A DNA stretch of 64,000 bases from Candidatus Arcticimaribacter forsetii. Its GTDB lineage: Bacteria; Bacteroidota; Bacteroidia; Flavobacteriales; Flavobacteriaceae. Under the pieces are notes generated by a model. That model made no database searches. It had not been told where the DNA came from and saw only the letters and a list, made by a program, of their open reading frames with translations. The stretch lies in contig NZ_OU342399.1 of assembly GCF_910589745.1 (NCBI RefSeq), positions 124,001 to 188,000 of the forward strand. Direction: 5' to 3'. Made by a program: the position numbers and the translations under genes. Of this stretch, positions 8,626 through 59,317 are shown one piece after another; the first letter of the stretch is position 1; each line of letters opens with the position of its first letter.

Positions 8626-8722
8626 GTATTTATTGAAATATTAAATATTGTTAATAAACCCTTACCCATTCGCAATAAATCAAAATAAAGAAAACAGTAC
8701 ATTAGCAGTAAAGAATAAAACT

Positions 8723-9727
8723 ATGGCAGACGATAAATCAGCGAAGCTAAAAGCGCTTCAACTTACTTTAGACAAGTTAGACAAAACCTATGGAAAAGGA
8801 TCTGTAATGAGGCTGGGAGATTCCGCAATCGAAGAAGTAGAGTCTATTTCTTCTGGTTCATTGGGTCTAGATATCGCTTTAGGTGTAGGAGGATATCCAA
8901 AAGGTAGAGTTATTGAAATTTATGGGCCAGAATCTTCTGGTAAAACAACATTGACGCTTCATGCGATTGCTGAATGTCAAAAGCAGGGAGGAATTGCTGC
9001 TTTTGTTGATGCAGAACATGCTTTCGATCGTTTTTATGCAGAAAAATTAGGCGTAGACGTTCAAGAACTAATTATTTCACAACCAGATCACGGGGAACAA
9101 GCTCTTGAAATTGCAGATAACTTAATTCGTTCTGGAGCTGTTGATATTGTAGTTATTGACTCTGTTGCTGCATTGACTCCAAAAAGTGAAATCGAAGGTG
9201 AAATGGGGGACTCTAAAATGGGGCTTCATGCACGTTTAATGTCTCAAGCTCTTCGTAAGCTAACTGGATCAATCAGTAGAACTAACTGTACGGTGTTTTT
9301 CATTAATCAATTAAGAGAAAAAATTGGAGTAATGTTTGGAAACCCAGAAACAACAACTGGAGGTAACGCCTTAAAGTTTTATGCTTCTGTCCGTTTAGAT
9401 ATTAGAAGATCTACTCAAATAAAAGACGCTGACGCTCAAGTTTTAGGTAATAAAACTCGTGTTAAGGTTGTAAAAAACAAAGTTGCTCCCCCTTTTAGAA
9501 CTACAGAATTTGACATTATGTACGGAGAAGGAATTTCTAAAATTGGCGAAGTAATTGACTTAGGAGTTAATTATGAAATAATTAAAAAATCTGGTTCTTG
9601 GTTTAGCTACGGTGACACTAAAATTGGACAAGGTCGTGAATCTGTTAAAACTTTGTTACAGGACAATCCAGATTTAATGGATGAGCTGGAAGTAAAAATT
9701 ATGGAAGCAATAAAATCTGTAAGTTAA
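8723..9727 (+). CDS. recA: Recombinase RecA
   Basis: The 334-residue RecA has Walker [10 protein letters not shown] (residues 68-76), the Walker B strand [11 protein letters not shown], loop L1/L2 regions and [22 protein letters not shown]. It polymerises on single-stranded DNA for homologous recombination and SOS induction. The start is ATG at 8723 ([12 protein letters not shown]); the 25-residue in-frame extension from a TTG at 8648 does not resemble RecA. A strong hairpin terminator follows directly. No clear TAnnTTTG or LexA-type operator was recognised upstream. It is intact, in contrast to the broken dprA 3 kb away. Confidence 0.98.
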
Positions 9728-11595: not shown

Positions 11596-12564
11596 ATGGC
11601 TAGAATACTAACAGGTGTACAAAGCACAGGAACTCCTCACTTAGGTAATCTTTTGGGAGCAGTTCTTCCTGCAATTGCAATGGCAGAACAACCGGATAAT
11701 GAATCCTTTCTTTTTATTGCAGACTTACACTCACTAACTCAAATTAAAGACGGAACTCTTTTAAGAAAGCACACTTTTAACACAGCTGCTGCTTGGTTGG
11801 CTTGTGGATTAGATACCGATAAAACAATATTTTATAAGCAAAGTGATGTAAGCCAGGTTACTGAACTAAATTGGTATTTGAATTGCTTTTTCCCATATCA
11901 AAGACTAACTCTTGCGCATTCATTTAAAGACAAAGCAGATCATTTGTCTGATGTAAATGCAGGTCTTTTTAGTTATCCTATGTTAATGGCAGCAGATATT
12001 TTACTCTACGATGCAGAAATAGTTCCTGTTGGAAAAGATCAATTACAGCACTTAGAAATAACACGTGATGTTGCTTCTCGTTTTAATAATCAACAAGGAG
12101 AAACCTTCGTTCTTCCAAAAGCACAGATCCAAGAAGATTCTCAAATAATCCCAGGCACTGATGGTCAAAAAATGAGTAAATCAAAAAACAATACCATCAA
12201 TGTTTTTTTACCTGAAAAAAAGCTGCGCAAACAAATTATGGGTATTAAGACAGACTCTACTCCCATGGAAGATCCAAAGGATCCGGACACCTGTACTGTT
12301 TTTGCGCTATATTCCTTGCTTGCAAACGAAACTCAGATTACTGATTTACGAGAACAATATCTAGCCGGTGGAATGGGATATGGACACGCAAAACAAGCTT
12401 TATTTGAGCTTGTTTTAGACACCTTTGATGAGGCTAGAACGAAGTTTGATTACTATCAAAACAACCCTGCGGAGGTTGCTATTGCTCTTGCTAAAGGAGC
12501 TCAGAAGGCTCAAGCCATTGCAACGGATGTTTTAATGCGCGTTCGGTCTAAGATCGGTTATTAA
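11596..12564 (+). CDS. trpS: Tryptophanyl-tRNA synthetase
   Basis: The 322-residue class I synthetase charges tRNA-Trp. It has the HIGH-like motif in TPHLGNLLGAV at the N-terminus, AADILLYDAEIVPVGKDQLQH (the conserved mid-domain), and KMSKSKNN as the KMSKS loop. Length and motif spacing are normal. It is a single-gene unit with its own promoter. It ends 17 bp before the convergent dprA remnant, with no hairpin between them. Confidence 0.97.
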   Translation: MARILTGVQSTGTPHLGNLLGAVLPAIAMAEQPDNESFLFIADLHSLTQIKDGTLLRKHTFNTAAAWLACGLDTDKTIFYKQSDVSQVTELNWYLNCFFPYQRLTLAHSFKDKADHLSDVNAGLFSYPMLMAADILLYDAEIVPVGKDQLQHLEITRDVASRFNNQQGETFVLPKAQIQEDSQIIPGTDGQKMSKSKNNTINVFLPEKKLRKQIMGIKTDSTPMEDPKDPDTCTVFALYSLLANETQITDLREQYLAGGMGYGHAKQALFELVLDTFDEARTKFDYYQNNPAEVAIALAKGAQKAQAIATDVLMRVRSKIGY

Positions 12565-12581
12565 ATACGTTCGAACTGCTT

Positions 12582-13657
12582 TCAAGGAAGTGGCCTTATA
12601 TAATTTTTCATTTCCAATTGAAATAAAATAGAAGCTACCTTACTAATCGGAAATTTAGAAAGCAACGATAGTTTATCTAAAGTTAACTTTATTTCTAAGA
12701 GTTTGTAAACTTGTTCCTCCTCTTTGGTTAGTAAAACAAATAATTCTTTTTGAAAAATTTTTGGTTTGGGCTTTAGCTCCCAACCCATCCAATAAGCAAG
12801 ATCTGAAGCAGAAGTAATCATTCGTGCTTTATCTGAACGTATTAAGTTTAAACAGCCTAGGCTTTGTCGATCGGTAACTCTTCCTGGAACTGCAAAAACA
12901 TCTCTCCCATAATGGTGGGCATGTTCTGTTGTAACTAAACTACCTCCTTTTATTCCTGATTCTATAACAAGAGTTGCATGTGCTATTCCTGCTATGATTC
13001 TATTTCTTTTTAAAAAGTTCGATTTCTCAAAAGAAGCCGTACTCCAAAATTCCTAAAGCAAAGCACCCTGATTAGCAATCTGATTTACATAAATACTATG
13101 CTCTTTTGGATAAATTTGGTTTAACCCATGTGCTAGGCAAGCTACCGTTTCTAGCTTTTGATCTAAGGCTGCTTTGTGAGCTACAATATCGATTCCTCGC
13201 GCTAAACCAGATACAACTATAGGCTGATAAGCGGCTAGATCTTGGATTAATTGTTTACAAAAATCAATCCCTCTTGTAGTGGGGTTTCTAGTTCCAACAA
13301 CACTAATTATTCGATTGTTCTCCCAGGACACTTTTCCTTTTTGAAATAAGACCAATGGTGCATTAGAACAGAATCCCAATGTAGTTGGATAACTACTAGA
13401 ACCGTATTCAATGGGAGTAATTTTTTCTTTTTTTAAAAAATTTCTTCCTCTTTTACCGCATCAAAATAAGACTCATATTTACTAAATCCTTTTAAATGGA
13501 AGGTGCCTATTCCTTTAATTTTAAGAAGATTACTTCGTTTTTCATTTAATACGCTTTGTGCGCTACCACAATGATCTACTAGTTTTTTGGCAGTAATATC
13601 ACCAATACCGGGTAACAGTTGCAACAATAAAGAGGCTTGAATAGACGTTAGGTTCAT
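12582..13657 (-). pseudogene. dprA: dprA, DNA-processing protein, broken by a frameshift and a stop codon
   Basis: Three pieces in order make a near full-length DprA, the protein that loads RecA on incoming DNA during transformation. Residues 1-74 from ATG 13657 form the helix-hairpin-helix domain (LLPGIGDITAKKL). At 13421-13440 the coding strand has T6-A7; with one more T, translation would continue FLKKEKITPIEYG into the Rossmann domain, but as it stands it ends in TAA. The second piece carries VVGTRNPTTRG, VSGLARGID and NQGALL, then an in-frame TAG at 13053-13055 where a Ser before EFWS is expected. The last piece runs through RNRIIAGIAHATLVIESG, GGSLVTTEHA, FAVPGR and the C-terminal winged helix to YIRPLP. 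The sequence is otherwise well preserved, so inactivation looks recent. Two separate lesions make a sequencing error less likely. Neighbours trpS and the SPOR gene are the usual ones. Confidence 0.9.
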
Positions 13658-13732: not shown

Positions 13733-13735
13733 AAT

Positions 13736-14737
13736 ATGAATTTGGTACAATACATAAAAGAACTTCTTTATCAATACGAATGTGTAATCATTCCACAGCT
13801 GGGTTCATTCCTAACACAACCCGTTCCAATTCGGATTGACAGAGAAAGAGGAATTTTCTTTCCTCCAGGTAAAAACTTGTCTTTTAACGGTTTACTTACT
13901 CATAACGACGGGCTTTTAGCAAATTATATTGCTCAGCGTAAATCGATTTCATATGAAGAGGCTCTTCAAGAAATTAATCAAGAGGTACAGGACTGGAATA
14001 AAAACCTAACTGTTGGAGGAAACGTTATTTTAAAAGGAATTGGAGAATTAACTCTAAATTCTGAAAATAAAATAAATTTCTCTCCTTATGAAAAAGTAAA
14101 TTTCGATTCAAATTCAATTGGGTTAGCATCCTTTACTAAAAAACCCGTAGCGAAAACATTTGAAACTAAAACTACAACTCACAAACCCATTACTCCTAAA
14201 AAAACAATGATCATGGAAGATTCAAAAAATGAAAATTTAGCTTTTACTCCTGAAACTAAAAAACAGCAACCTAGTTACTTAAAGTATGCAGCAGTTGGAG
14301 TTATTACCATTGGTTTAGTTGCAGCCTCTTACTTTTTCGGTAATCAATACTTAGCAGACGAACGTCTAAAATCTACTGAACTTGCTCAAGAACAAATCAA
14401 AAGTAATGTTCAAGAAGCCTCTTTTGACATTGGTGAATTAGCAACTTTAGAACTAAATGTTGTTGCTGAAAACGTCTCTGATGATGAAAACCTAGAAGCT
14501 GTTTCTGGGGATTACTTTAGTGTCATTGCTGGAAGTTTTCGTGAAGAGTCAAATGCTTTAAGAATGATTGAGCAACTTAAGTCGGAAGGTTTTGAAGATG
14601 CTTCTTTGGCTAAAGAAAGTCCCGATGGGCTATACAGAGTTGCTTATGCAAGATTTGAGTCTAAACGCAAAGCAATTCAATTGTATTATTTCTTGACAAG
14701 AACACTAGAAGAAGAGGCTTGGTATTTAGCCGAGTAA
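13736..14737 (+). CDS. HU-domain and SPOR-domain membrane protein
   Basis: The 333-residue protein starts with a CCDC81-like/HU-type domain (MNLVQYIKELLYQYECVIIP, residues 1-20, with GSFLTQ after it), has a linker, one transmembrane segment (YLKYAAVGVITIGLVAASYF, about residues 181-200), then a periplasmic linker and a C-terminal SPOR domain (YFSVIAGSFREESNALRMIE...GLYRVAYARF). SPOR domains bind denuded peptidoglycan at division sites; the cytoplasmic HU-like domain suggests DNA or protein binding. The combination is common in Bacteroidota and is probably linked to division or chromosome organisation, but function is unproven. The ATG at 13736 is used; the extra 12 residues from an upstream TTG fall inside the promoter. 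It is divergent from dprA and ends 5 bp from the convergent envC-like gene. Confidence 0.85.
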   Translation: MNLVQYIKELLYQYECVIIPQLGSFLTQPVPIRIDRERGIFFPPGKNLSFNGLLTHNDGLLANYIAQRKSISYEEALQEINQEVQDWNKNLTVGGNVILKGIGELTLNSENKINFSPYEKVNFDSNSIGLASFTKKPVAKTFETKTTTHKPITPKKTMIMEDSKNENLAFTPETKKQQPSYLKYAAVGVITIGLVAASYFFGNQYLADERLKSTELAQEQIKSNVQEASFDIGELATLELNVVAENVSDDENLEAVSGDYFSVIAGSFREESNALRMIEQLKSEGFEDASLAKESPDGLYRVAYARFESKRKAIQLYYFLTRTLEEEAWYLAE

Positions 14738-31212: not shown

Positions 31213-32157
31213 CTAAATTAAAACACCAACTATGGTGCTTAGTGCGTCTTGAAATATTATACATAAACAAATAATAAAAAACCCTTCTAACAAGAGTTTG
31301 CTCTTTATGCTATTTAAAAATTGGGCTGATAAAACTGAAGATGCCATAACAAAAGCAATCCAAGTAATTGCATTCTCCTCTCCTCCAAAAAGAACTATTG
31401 AAAGGCTAGAAAACAAAATTAAAATACAAACTCTCAGATTTAATTTTTCCCTTTTTCGAGCCTGATACTTTTCTTTAACATGTTTAAATACAAAAATAAT
31501 TGAAGCTAGTAATATAAAAAATAACCCCGTATTCTCTTGGGTATTATCACTCATCAAAGCATTAAAGCTTGATGTTATAAATTCGTTTTTACCTATAATT
31601 AATAGGTTAGGAAATAATTCCGAAAGTGCTGCCCAAATAATATATAAAGAAACAAATGGTAAAAAAGTTAAAAATATATTACTGATGTTTAAACGACCTT
31701 TAAAATATAAAACAGCCCACAAGATTACATAAAAAAAATAAAAATCTGTCTTAAATAGAATTGCGAAAACCAACCATAATCCAGCGTTAAAAATTGATTT
31801 TTTTTCAGACTCATTTTCATCTAATTTCATGATGATTAAAACACTAGACCAAAAAAATAAAACTGAAATCCACACCCAAATACTCCACTTTGATATGGGT
31901 AGCATGGCAAAAAATAAAATAAAAATAAAAAGGTGATAATTTGTCCTTTGAAAAAACAAAGCTTGTCTAACCGTTACTTCAACTAAAACAATGCTGATTA
32001 ACGATAGAAAACCTGCAACGGTAGACTTTAAAACAAGATTATTGCTTGGGTTTAATTTTTCAATAAAAAAATGATGCCCATAAACAGCCAATAAAAGAAG
32101 TACAAATGCAAGAGCATAGCTCCAAAAAGAAGTCTCTTTAAAAACTCTGGTAAACAT
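31213..32157 (-). CDS. DUF6427-like polytopic membrane protein
   Basis: The 314-residue protein has about nine or ten hydrophobic segments. FFQRTNYHLFIFILFFAMLP and the early FLSLISIVLVEVTVRQ segment resemble a flavobacterial family I know as DUF6427. No catalytic motif is visible. It is co-oriented with a GT4 gene, so a role in envelope polysaccharide metabolism is possible but unproven. Confidence 0.7.
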   Translation of the reverse strand: MFTRVFKETSFWSYALAFVLLLLAVYGHHFFIEKLNPSNNLVLKSTVAGFLSLISIVLVEVTVRQALFFQRTNYHLFIFILFFAMLPISKWSIWVWISVLFFWSSVLIIMKLDENESEKKSIFNAGLWLVFAILFKTDFYFFYVILWAVLYFKGRLNISNIFLTFLPFVSLYIIWAALSELFPNLLIIGKNEFITSSFNALMSDNTQENTGLFFILLASIIFVFKHVKEKYQARKREKLNLRVCILILFSSLSIVLFGGEENAITWIAFVMASSVLSAQFLNSIKSKLLLEGFFIICLCIIFQDALSTIVGVLI

Positions 32158-53609: not shown

Positions 53610-55790
53610 CTATATGATATTACTTTCTGATAATTTAAAATCAAGGTGTCTTTTAATAAGATCCGCTTTTAATACGCTCACTTCAATAGAGTCTCCTAAC
53701 TGATATTTCTTTTTTGTTCTTTCACCTATTAAAGAATGGTTTGAATCATCATAATTAAAAAAATCCCCTGTTATATCTTTAATTCTAACCATTCCTTCAC
53801 ACTTATTATCAACTAATTCAACATAAATTCCTCTGTCTGTTACTCCTGATATAACCCCTTCAAAAACTTTACCAACTTTATCTTCCATAAATTTAATTTG
53901 CATAAATTTTATAGAATCTCTTTCTGCTTTTGTAGCGATCATTTCTCGTTGAGAAGAATGAACACAAGCAGCTTGAATCGTTTCTGTATTTTTTACTTTT
54001 TCTTTAGCTAAATGTTGTTCTAATAATCTGTGAACCATTACATCTGGATACCTTCTTATTGGAGATGTAAAATGAGAATAAAAATTAAAAGCCAAACCAT
54101 AATGTCCAATATTATCAATATTATATTCTGCTTTACTCATACATCGTATAGTAAGAGTGTCAATAAGGTTTTGCTCTTGTTTTCCTTGAATATCAGATAA
54201 TAAATTATTTAAAGACTTACTAACATCTTTAGTTTGTAAATTTAAATTATATCCAAAATTAGAAACTACTGTTTGAAGATTAGTTAGTTTTTCGACATCT
54301 GGTTCATCGTGAATTCTGTAAACAAAAGGGAGAGGATTTTTTCTTTTTCCCGCAAAAGTGGCTACTTGTTTATTTGCTAGCAACATAAATTCCTCTACAA
54401 GTTTATTAGCATCTTTAGAGGTTTTAAAATAAACGCTTTCTGGTGTATCGTCTTCTTTTAAAATAAAATTAACTTCAACCCTATCAAAAGAAAGAGCGCC
54501 AGATTTCATTCTTTTAGCACGTAATTTTTTTGCTATATCATCTAGTTTTAAAACAGCTGTTAGAATATCGGAGGAAACATCATAAGCTTCTCCTGTTAAT
54601 GAAACCTCTTTAGATATAGTACTTTCTTTTGTTTCTATTAATTCTTGCGCTTCTTCATATGCAAAACGATGGTCAGAATAAATGACCGTTTTTCCAAACC
54701 ATTCTTCTAAAATCTCTCCTTTAGAATTCATAGTGAAAACAGCAGAAAAGGTATATTTTTCTTCTTTTGGTCTTAATGAACAAACACCATTAGACAACAC
54801 TTCTGGCAACATTGGAACAACTCTATCTACTAAATATACAGAAGTTGCTCTTTCGTATGCTTCTTCATCTAATATACTATGAGGTTTTACATAATGGGAA
54901 ACATCTGCAATATGTATTCCTATTTCGAATTTATCCTCTTCTAAGATTTTAAAAGATAAAGCGTCATCAAAATCTTTTGCTGTTTTTGGATCAATAGTAA
55001 AAGTTAATGTCTTTCTAAAATCTCTTCTTTTTTTTATTTCCTCTAAACTTATAGATTGATCAATTGCATCTGCAGCCTCCTCTACTTCTTTTGGAAAATG
55101 TAAGGGTAACCCATAATCTGATAAAATGGCATGCATTTCAGTATTTGTTTCTCCTGGTGGTCCAAAGGATTCTATTAAAGTTCCATAAGGAGATTCTGCT
55201 CTTTTAGGCCAATCTGAATATTCCACTAAAACTTTATCTCCATTCTTGTAACCTTCTAATTGCTTTTTATCAATAAAAAAGTCCGTGTACATTCTTGGTC
55301 CCCTGGTCAATACAAAAGCATAGTTTTTTTCGATCTGTAAAACACCTACAAATTGTGTTTTGTTACGTTCAATTATAGCAACTATTTCACCTTCAAAAGC
55401 GCCAGATTTTTGTTTTCTTTTATAAACATAAACCTCAACTAAATCTCCCTGAAAAGCTCTATTTATGTTGTTTTTTGGTATTAGTATATCCTGTTCTAAT
55501 TGATCACATATTACAAAGCCTCTTCCTGTTGATGTAACATCTAAAATTCCTTGATAATATTGTGATCCTATTTGTTCTAATTTATATTTTCCTTTTGTAG
55601 AACTTTTAAGTATTTTTTCAGAAGTTAATTTATTTAATATTTTAATAATTTCATTCCTTGTTTTCGTGTCTTTTATTTCTAAAACAGCAGCAACTTGTTT
55701 ATAATTATATTCTTTCTCAGGATTATTACGAAAATGTTTAGTTATTTTTCGTTCTAAAGAGTTTTTCTTTTTCTTCTTCTTTTTAAACAT
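53610..55790 (-). CDS. rnr: Ribonuclease R
   Basis: The 726-residue 3'-5' exoribonuclease has an N-terminal winged helix (about residues 10-70), cold-shock domains, the RNB catalytic domain with TIDPKTAKDFDDALS (the Asp cluster) and YAHFTSPIRRYPD-like HYGLAFNFYSHFTSPIRRYP, and a C-terminal S1 domain. It degrades structured RNA. The N-terminus is a Lys tract (FKKKKKKKNS). The gene looks richer in A/T-ending codons than its neighbours. A TAATTTTG box ends 4 nt before its ATG. Confidence 0.97.
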   Translation of the reverse strand: MFKKKKKKKNSLERKITKHFRNNPEKEYNYKQVAAVLEIKDTKTRNEIIKILNKLTSEKILKSSTKGKYKLEQIGSQYYQGILDVTSTGRGFVICDQLEQDILIPKNNINRAFQGDLVEVYVYKRKQKSGAFEGEIVAIIERNKTQFVGVLQIEKNYAFVLTRGPRMYTDFFIDKKQLEGYKNGDKVLVEYSDWPKRAESPYGTLIESFGPPGETNTEMHAILSDYGLPLHFPKEVEEAADAIDQSISLEEIKKRRDFRKTLTFTIDPKTAKDFDDALSFKILEEDKFEIGIHIADVSHYVKPHSILDEEAYERATSVYLVDRVVPMLPEVLSNGVCSLRPKEEKYTFSAVFTMNSKGEILEEWFGKTVIYSDHRFAYEEAQELIETKESTISKEVSLTGEAYDVSSDILTAVLKLDDIAKKLRAKRMKSGALSFDRVEVNFILKEDDTPESVYFKTSKDANKLVEEFMLLANKQVATFAGKRKNPLPFVYRIHDEPDVEKLTNLQTVVSNFGYNLNLQTKDVSKSLNNLLSDIQGKQEQNLIDTLTIRCMSKAEYNIDNIGHYGLAFNFYSHFTSPIRRYPDVMVHRLLEQHLAKEKVKNTETIQAACVHSSQREMIATKAERDSIKFMQIKFMEDKVGKVFEGVISGVTDRGIYVELVDNKCEGMVRIKDITGDFFNYDDSNHSLIGERTKKKYQLGDSIEVSVLKADLIKRHLDFKLSESNII

Positions 55791-57171: not shown

Positions 57172-57516
57172 TTATTTCGTTAACAAGGCAGTTATTTCTT
57201 TTATTAGCTCTTCTGTTTTTGGTTTTTTCTTCCCGGTATAAATTAACATACAAGCCCCTTTAAAAGGTATGTTTTTTTCAACCTGCTTGAATGTTTCTCG
57301 TAATTGTCTTTTTATTTGATTCCTATCCACTGCTCTTTTAAAGTTCTTTTTTGGAACGGAAACTCCAGCAGAAAGGCTTGTCTCGTCAGAGGATTTCAGT
57401 ATTTTAAGAAAAAGGTTTTTAGATTTTAATTGAGTTCCTTTTTTAAATAGAGCGTCAATTAAATCTTTTCCCTTCAGACGTTTTAAAAACGAACCTTTAC
57501 TCATTACTAATTTCAT
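57172..57516 (-). CDS. rnpA: Ribonuclease P protein component
   Basis: The 114-residue basic protein has the RNR motif KRAVDRNQIKRQLRETF and the N-terminal FLKRLKGKDLIDALFKKG helix-strand. It helps the RNA subunit process tRNA 5' ends. Start is ATG at 57516 or 57504 (MSKGSF); either overlaps the 3' end of the M1 peptidase gene, so the two are translated together. In many bacteria rnpA sits at oriC with rpmH and dnaA; neither is present here. Confidence 0.95.
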   Translation of the reverse strand: MKLVMSKGSFLKRLKGKDLIDALFKKGTQLKSKNLFLKILKSSDETSLSAGVSVPKKNFKRAVDRNQIKRQLRETFKQVEKNIPFKGACMLIYTGKKKPKTEELIKEITALLTK

Positions 57517-59317
57517 ATCTATTGTTAGTGCGATCAATATCTGCCATATAAAATGTAGGGTCAAGGGTTATTGATTTGATTTCTTCTATTTTCTTTTCAA
57601 TAGAGAAACTATATTCTGGATTAGCCCAAGACCAGCTTTTTTCAACATTCCATTTTAAATCATAAGGGTTTTCTTTCTCTCCACGCATTAGAGTAATTGG
57701 TATATAATGCATTTCTTGAGTTCCGTCTGTGTATTCAATTAATACATCTAAAGGCATTGGCATCATTCCTATTCGATTTAAATTCACCGTAGCACCCTTA
57801 TTTGTAGATACAACTTCTTTAATTGCGTAATCTATTGTGTTGGTTGTTTGAGTCCAATCCGTTATGTACCAACGCAGTTGAATTCCTGAAATACGCTCTG
57901 CAATTCTTCTTATATCGTTAGGTACAGGATGTTTAAATTTATACTCGTTGTAGTATGTTTTTAATGTTTCATTTAATTTATCCATGCCAATAATATAACC
58001 CAGTTGACCAAGAAATACAGCTCCTTTATTATAAGCTGTGCTTTCGTATGCAAAATTGTAATGATATCGGTTAGCATTTGCACTTTGAGGTTCTTCCACA
58101 CCCGAAGTTGCAAGCCTTAAATAACCACCATAGGAACGAAGTAAAGGAAATTCACTTTCTTCTTTAAGCACTTTATTTTTGGCTAGGGTAGATATATAAG
58201 AGGTAAACCCCTCATCCATCCATTCATGTTTCGTTTCGTTTGTAGCTAGTATATGCTGAAACCAAGAATGCGCTAATTCATGAGAAGTAACACCAACCAA
58301 AGATCCAAATTTACGCTCTCCAGTGATTAGAGTACACATAGCATATTCCATTCCACCATCTCCGCCATGGATTACAGAGTATTGTTTGTATGGATATGGG
58401 CCAATCTTTTCATTGAAGTATTCCATTAATTCAGCAGTTAGTGGCTGAAGTTTTTTCCAATTCTCAATTATTTCGGGGTTGTTTTTATAAAAGAAATGTA
58501 GGTCTACATTGTTTGGACCAGGATATATGTCATGGACATAATCTTTGTCTGCAGCAAAAGTAAAATCGTGTACATTTGGCGCTATAAAATGCCAGGTTAT
58601 CTTTCCTTTTTTAGATTTAGATTTTTTACGATCACTATATCCTTTTCCAATTTTATCCGCATTTTGAAGATACCCACTTCCACCAACAGTATATTCCTTG
58701 TCTAATGTAATTTTAACATCAAAATCTCCCCAAACTCCATGAAACTCTCTTCCTGTATATGGATCCGTATTCCAACCATCTACATCATATTCAGACATTT
58801 TAGGATACCATTGCGCCATAGAATAGGCAACTCCTTCTGTTGAATTTTTTCCAGCTCTTCTTATTAAGTCAGGAACATGTCCCTTAAAATCCAATTCTAA
58901 AACTGTAGACCCTCCCGAAAGAATAGGCTCATTTAAGGTTACTTCTAGTATTGTTCCGGATTCTTTTATTTGTACTGGCTTTCCGTTTTGTTTTAACGAG
59001 CTTACTTTAAGATAACCGCTTTGAAATTCATTCAAAGAGTCTAAGTCTACTTTAAAACGACCGTTTCTATCCCCACCGTTTTTTAAACGAATTGCCATAT
59101 CACTTCCAGGCTGAAAAGCATTGAAGTATAGATGATAAAAAACCTTAGAGAGGGATTCAGGAGAATTATTAGTATAAATTAATTTCTGAGAACCAGAATA
59201 ATCAGCTGTTTCAGCATCCAATTCAACATTCATTGTGTAGTCAACTTTTTGTTGCCAATATTGAGCAGATAGGTTCAAAGAAAATAGACTTAAAAGAGCA
59301 ATAGCAAAATATTTCAT
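57497..59317 (-). CDS. M1-family zinc metallopeptidase, secreted
   Basis: The 606-residue protein has a signal peptide (about 1-18, SLNLSAQ). It is an M1 aminopeptidase-like protein with GGDGGMEYAMC (GAMEN-like substrate loop) and the zinc site SHELAHSWFQHI followed by DEGFTSYIS (second Glu ligand). It probably works in the periplasm or at the outer membrane. The 3' end overlaps rnpA by 8-20 bp. It follows the MBL gene by 38 bp. Confidence 0.92.
   Translation of the reverse strand: MKYFAIALLSLFSLNLSAQYWQQKVDYTMNVELDAETADYSGSQKLIYTNNSPESLSKVFYHLYFNAFQPGSDMAIRLKNGGDRNGRFKVDLDSLNEFQSGYLKVSSLKQNGKPVQIKESGTILEVTLNEPILSGGSTVLELDFKGHVPDLIRRAGKNSTEGVAYSMAQWYPKMSEYDVDGWNTDPYTGREFHGVWGDFDVKITLDKEYTVGGSGYLQNADKIGKGYSDRKKSKSKKGKITWHFIAPNVHDFTFAADKDYVHDIYPGPNNVDLHFFYKNNPEIIENWKKLQPLTAELMEYFNEKIGPYPYKQYSVIHGGDGGMEYAMCTLITGERKFGSLVGVTSHELAHSWFQHILATNETKHEWMDEGFTSYISTLAKNKVLKEESEFPLLRSYGGYLRLATSGVEEPQSANANRYHYNFAYESTAYNKGAVFLGQLGYIIGMDKLNETLKTYYNEYKFKHPVPNDIRRIAERISGIQLRWYITDWTQTTNTIDYAIKEVVSTNKGATVNLNRIGMMPMPLDVLIEYTDGTQEMHYIPITLMRGEKENPYDLKWNVEKSWSWANPEYSFSIEKKIEEIKSITLDPTFYMADIDRTNNRYEISNE

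Follow-up and report, generated by a model that had tools for sequence, protein, structure and literature searches.

Probable recent inactivation of dprA in Candidatus Arcticimaribacter forsetii and repeated decay of transformation genes in its genus

Why bacteria retain natural transformation is an old question. In a competent cell, ComEC passes single-stranded DNA inward, and DprA protects this DNA and loads RecA for recombination. The window considered here, a 64 kb stretch of the single-contig genome (2,034,069 bases) designated G000, carries a dprA whose continuous reading frame has failed, being broken by one frameshift and two premature stops. The question raised by this locus is whether such damage is genuine and recent, and whether it concerns one strain or a whole genus. 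We have high confidence that the locus represents a recently inactivated dprA, which would be one element in the disappearance of natural transformation here and, separately, in most species of Candidatus Arcticimaribacter.

The dprA pseudogene and other competence genes of G000

In its ancestral extent the dprA pseudogene covers positions 12561 to 13657 on the minus strand, as delimited by matches to PF02481 and TIGR00732 and by a frameshift-aware alignment to the intact copy of the genus mate G018 (75% identity, codons 1-364). The identity of the gene is supported by PF02481 (E-value 4.7e-69, 232 bits against a cut-off of 29.6), by the dprA equivalog TIGR00732 (204.9 bits, above the curated cut-off of 191.15) and by sequence matches of its pieces to solved DprA structures. 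Both accessory parts, an N-terminal HhH/SAM-like region and a C-terminal winged helix, are present; the latter scores just above the DprA_WH cut-off (23.2 and 22.9 bits, respectively), and the former stays below that of HHH_5 (24.8 and 27 bits). The HhH, Rossmann and winged-helix parts named in an earlier, sequence-only reading of this stretch are therefore all recognisable, the first of them under its cut-off.

In the three-frame translation of the minus strand, one frame begins with the ATG at 13657 and contains the HhH part; it ends at a TAA (13433-13435) and leaves an open N-terminal fragment of 74 codons (13433-13657, minus strand; HHH families with E-values of 3e-5 to 5e-4, under the curated cut-offs). 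From about 13440 downwards the reading moves to a different frame, which encodes the Rossmann and winged-helix parts. The first lesion, located by this translation and by frameshift-aware alignment, is a -1 shift in codon 73, on the upstream border of a T6A7 stretch in minus-strand reading (13428-13440 on the plus strand). The second is an in-frame TAG at codon 202 (13053-13055, minus strand), inside the Rossmann domain and directly before a conserved EFW motif, evident from both translation and alignment. These were the two lesions of the sequence-only reading, and both are real; a third one has to be added, since the TGA at 12582-12584 (minus strand, codon 359), formerly taken as the end of the gene, proved in the frameshift-aware alignment to cut off the last seven codons kept in relatives. 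The frame of the latter is about seven codons longer and reaches the end of trpS, which the ancestral dprA stop (12561) overlaps. Taken singly, the TGA is probably a mild change.

The site is orthologous to that of intact copies, which in genus members lie between trpS and a SPOR-type gene. Both of these synteny anchors are intact in the window: trpS (11596-12564, plus strand), the convergent neighbour, is undamaged in each of the 16 genus genomes in which it was found, and the SPOR-type gene (13734-14737, plus strand), named by eye and identified by its ORF and by comparison, is divergent from dprA. Identified in the same way, recA (8648-9727, plus strand; likely start ATG at about 8723) is also intact. 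A search of the whole single-contig genome found one dprA place and no second dprA.

The comEC gene of G000 is more heavily damaged. A deletion of approximately 1.8 kb has removed about 600 of its ~678 codons, leaving about 67 N-terminal codons fused to a small residue from the 3' end, at about 1885009-1885209 of contig C1 (L237:2009-2209). This remnant is flanked by lpxB and a thioredoxin-like gene (trx), as comEC is in relatives; neither a comEC domain match nor a second comEC copy was found in the single-contig genome. On the other hand, comM (507 aa) is whole and free of lesions, and comF and recA are whole too. Of the genes whose integrity the sequence-only reading proposed to check, comEC is thus deleted and comF whole, and its suggestion that transformation was lost with recA kept is supported by the gene content, given the comEC remnant, the single broken dprA and the whole recA.

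With comEC so truncated and dprA carrying three lesions, neither entry nor processing of DNA would be expected in G000: without about 600 codons of comEC, no DNA would enter by the ComEC route, and with three disabling or damaging changes in dprA, incoming DNA would not be processed. The persistence of RecA, ComM and ComF may reflect other uses, or a decay that has not yet begun; intact comM and comF could also belong to a pathway that is maintained for a different purpose, which counts against the loss reading. In Riemerella anatipestifer, placed by its authors in the Flavobacteriaceae, ComEC, DprA, ComF and RecA were shown to be essential for transformation (PMC8459023, PMC6533540), and since both DprA and ComEC are needed there, strain G000 is very probably non-transformable. 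We infer this loss of phenotype from the dprA and comEC genotype. The machinery is a flavobacterial one common to both organisms, with the difference that the system is functional in Riemerella and that dprA and comEC are pseudogenes here.

Survey of dprA, comEC and comM across the genus

The genus sample comprised 19 genomes of Candidatus Arcticimaribacter (NS5 marine group), several of which are drafts. The dprA gene is broken in ten of the 15 readable syntenic loci, mostly by private lesions, and the comparison with relatives that the sequence-only reading had advised places the inactivation in G000 as one of many parallel losses. Intact copies were found beside trpS in G018, G009, G003, G014 and G005. 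Differing lesions break the gene in G000, G004, G007, G008, G010, G013, G016 and G001 (the last on a partial contig), and in G012 and G015 it is largely deleted. Four genomes were counted as unknown, namely G002, G011 and G017, in which dprA was not placed at the locus, and G006, in which only the last 27 codons are available.

Similarly, comEC is broken in 13 of 17 genomes, again mostly by private lesions. It is intact in G018, G009, G007 (with a shift only near the end) and G002 (up to the contig end), interrupted by stops or shifts in G003, G004, G005, G006, G011, G013 and G017, and reduced to remnants in G000, G001, G008, G010, G012 and G016; G014 and G015, where contig ends cut the gene, were counted as unknown. 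Five genomes (G000, G003, G005, G007 and G018) have a whole comM gene; in the other genomes of the genus it is broken, survives as a remnant or was not found. G018 is alone in having all three genes, dprA, comEC and comM, intact; its assembly is fragmented and gave no comF. The losses follow no fixed order: G003 and G005 combine an intact dprA with a stopped comEC, and G007 shows the reverse.

Some lesions consisting of a single indel, in dprA of G008, G010 and G013 and in comEC of G011 and G017, are possibly errors, which is a point against the loss reading. As separate observations, the G005 orthologs of two large window genes (53622-55757 and 57515-59317) carry paired frameshifts seen in G005 only; these look like residual assembly errors, and single indels of the G005 assembly therefore need caution. 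In G012, a lipoprotein-like small ORF of 174 codons occupies the former dprA body (L130:3097-3862). The comEC body of G010 is replaced by about 4.4 kb of other ORFs (L241:2249-6583), including one with 1,082 codons; a mobile-element insertion was considered as the cause of this replacement and set aside, as no transposase was recognised by eye among these ORFs.

The family baseline, consisting of one genome (at least 90% complete) from each of 118 other Flavobacteriaceae genera, gave a very different picture. In these genomes dprA was found in 115 genera (one copy partial) and comEC in 114, in all cases without internal stops. Fisher tests of the genus against this baseline yielded 8e-9 for dprA and 1e-11 for comEC, values that treat species as independent and serve as a guide only. 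The genus is exceptional in the loss of both genes. Three other genera of the family (G022, G090 and G101), all with genomes of 1.8-1.9 Mb, have neither gene, so that joint loss has happened elsewhere in the family.

Number and age of the losses, and alternative explanations

The age of the dprA losses was approached through 61 positions conserved among 15 intact DprA proteins from outside the genus. The copy of G000 departs from them at five positions, against three to five in intact genus members and 21 in G016, an old pseudogene. More broadly, the broken copies of G000, G004, G007, G008, G010 and G013 show four to seven departures out of 61 and still look constrained, with G016 as the old exception. 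Comparison of G000 with its nearest intact copy gave a pairwise dN/dS of about 0.075, indicative only, as dS is near saturation. Because of the few departures at conserved positions, the loss in G000 is considered recent when set against the divergence of the species, in agreement with the recency that the sequence-only reading had proposed.

In counting losses, lesions were taken as separate only where the copies are comparable and the lesion is not shared, and the pairs G012 with G000, G008 with G001, and G015 with G007 were each taken once. On these rules, at least seven inactivations of dprA would be needed within the genus, and at least four if single-indel and partial-draft lesions (G008/G001, G010 and G013) are set aside. 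In a tree built from nine proteins, each half of the genus contains intact copies; G012 and G000 are joined by a weak branch, with a support of 65. The best reading of these data would be a recurrent and mostly recent loss of natural transformation, similar to that of Pasteurellaceae but denser, and natural transformation seems to be disappearing from the genus one species at a time.

Among the alternatives, the one that survives best, and is still unlikely, is general genome reduction, by which dprA would have been lost as a dispensable gene with transformation not specially affected. The small size of the genome (2.03 Mb) and the three small-genome genera without both genes would fit it. Other genera with genomes of 1.6-2.2 Mb nevertheless hold both genes whole, comEC, dprA and comM all decay in the same genus, and neighbouring genes have stayed intact: for 14 neighbours of dprA and comEC on the same contigs, 150 of 151 copies have no damage, and the single flagged copy contains a run of N. 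As a further control of noise, the 64 kb window was compared with four syntenic genus stretches of about 72 kb, and loci around comEC were included. The comparison took in about 59 ortholog groups of the window; of the real genes in these, dprA alone is broken in G000, one further flag being an antisense ORF. Both sequencing noise and general decay are therefore poor explanations, although some general decay of the genome may have occurred. Elsewhere in the window, a gene of 314 codons (31216-32157) holds a conserved place with an identity of only 25-43% among genus members, being either fast evolving or replaced.

It is very improbable that dprA is in fact whole and that bases were miscalled, notably in the homopolymer, by sequencing or assembly error. 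One of the lesions does lie at the T6A7 stretch, and some assemblies of the genus have paired frameshifts resembling errors. Two of the three dprA lesions, however, are nonsense substitutions, hard to explain by homopolymer error, the remaining genes of the window are unbroken, and comEC has independently suffered its ~1.8 kb deletion. Furthermore, the genome of the isolate 'Arcticimaribacter forsetii' AHE01FL (2.03 Mb), apparently the same as G000, was obtained with PacBio and Illumina reads, including error-correction with the latter (PMC9122927).

We give just as little credence to the proposal that the ancestor of the genus was already non-transforming and that the intact copies are recent re-acquisitions. 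Broken dprA copies do outnumber intact ones, as this would predict; against it, the syntenic position and the neighbouring genes of the intact copies are unchanged, no two comparable copies have a lesion in common, and signs of constraint persist in most of the broken ones. Finally, a full DprA produced by -1 frameshifting or slippage on the A/T tract together with read-through of the TAG, or an on/off switch by phase variation, is scarcely credible: the stretch is A-rich and slippery and the frameshifts of G000, G010 and G016 lie within three codons of each other, but their base content differs, intact genus copies read the stretch in frame with no conserved slippery site, the TAG at codon 202 occurs in G000 only and, because comEC is deleted, there would be no uptake for DprA to serve.

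Comparison with known systems and candidate uptake genes

Recurrent loss of transformation, the reading preferred here, has precedents. In Pasteurellaceae, an ancestral competence pathway carries unique recent defects (stops, frameshifts and deletions) in scattered descendants, and it was argued that the losers are possible evolutionary dead ends (Redfield et al., 2006, PMC1626085). The likeness to the present genus lies in the ancestral pathway and in unique, recent and scattered defects. The difference is that three of eight species were affected there, in com/pil genes, and every species retained an intact dprA and rec2 (comEC), whereas here most species of one pelagic genus are affected, in comEC and dprA themselves. 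Frequent and recent losses of transformability have also been reported within the species Legionella pneumophila and Acinetobacter baumannii (Mazzamurro et al., 2024, PMC11472951). As in this genus, such losses are repeated over the phylogeny; in contrast, they were found within species, with measured phenotypes, and were tied to mobile elements, whereas the present ones lie between species and are read from gene lesions. The broken loci examined here showed no recognisable mobile element. The paper describing these genera and the first isolate makes no mention of competence or transformation (PMC9122927).

As to the cause, we infer relaxed or lineage-level selection. The need for transformation may be relaxed in a pelagic lifestyle, or loss may be frequent and followed by extinction of the losers; the data fit these two candidates alike. 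A broader and tentative view, whose chances we put somewhat short of even, is that this free-living pelagic genus has kept transformation in the long term and yet loses it repeatedly on terminal branches, with nearly every species freshly broken at any given moment. If this is true, the genus would constitute a natural knock-out series. Separate and mostly recent breakage of the DNA channel or of DprA, with neighbouring genes untouched, offers a replicated comparison across species, in which it can be asked what happens to recombination, mobile elements and gene decay after each loss, and whether the losers are short-lived.

Genes that decay together with dprA and comEC could, in addition, reveal parts of the partly unknown DNA-uptake apparatus of Flavobacteriaceae, and two candidates can be named. 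The first is a ~275 aa HhH protein resembling ComEA (loci L248-L259), which may correspond to an essential HhH protein of Riemerella. It has shifts or stops in G004, G006 and G010 and a candidate frameshift near the start in G000 (C1:1656220-1656387) and G011, and the genus search gave no match in G001 and G009. The second contains DUF5689, a domain that belongs to another gene essential for Riemerella transformation. Co-decay of these two genes with the transformation genes is suggestive. DUF5689 occurs in two of the 19 genus genomes, shortened in G008 (C1:1757055-1757318; L247) and whole in G018 (C137:10540-11226; L246), and the whole copy thus coincides with the sole genome in which dprA, comEC and comM are all intact.
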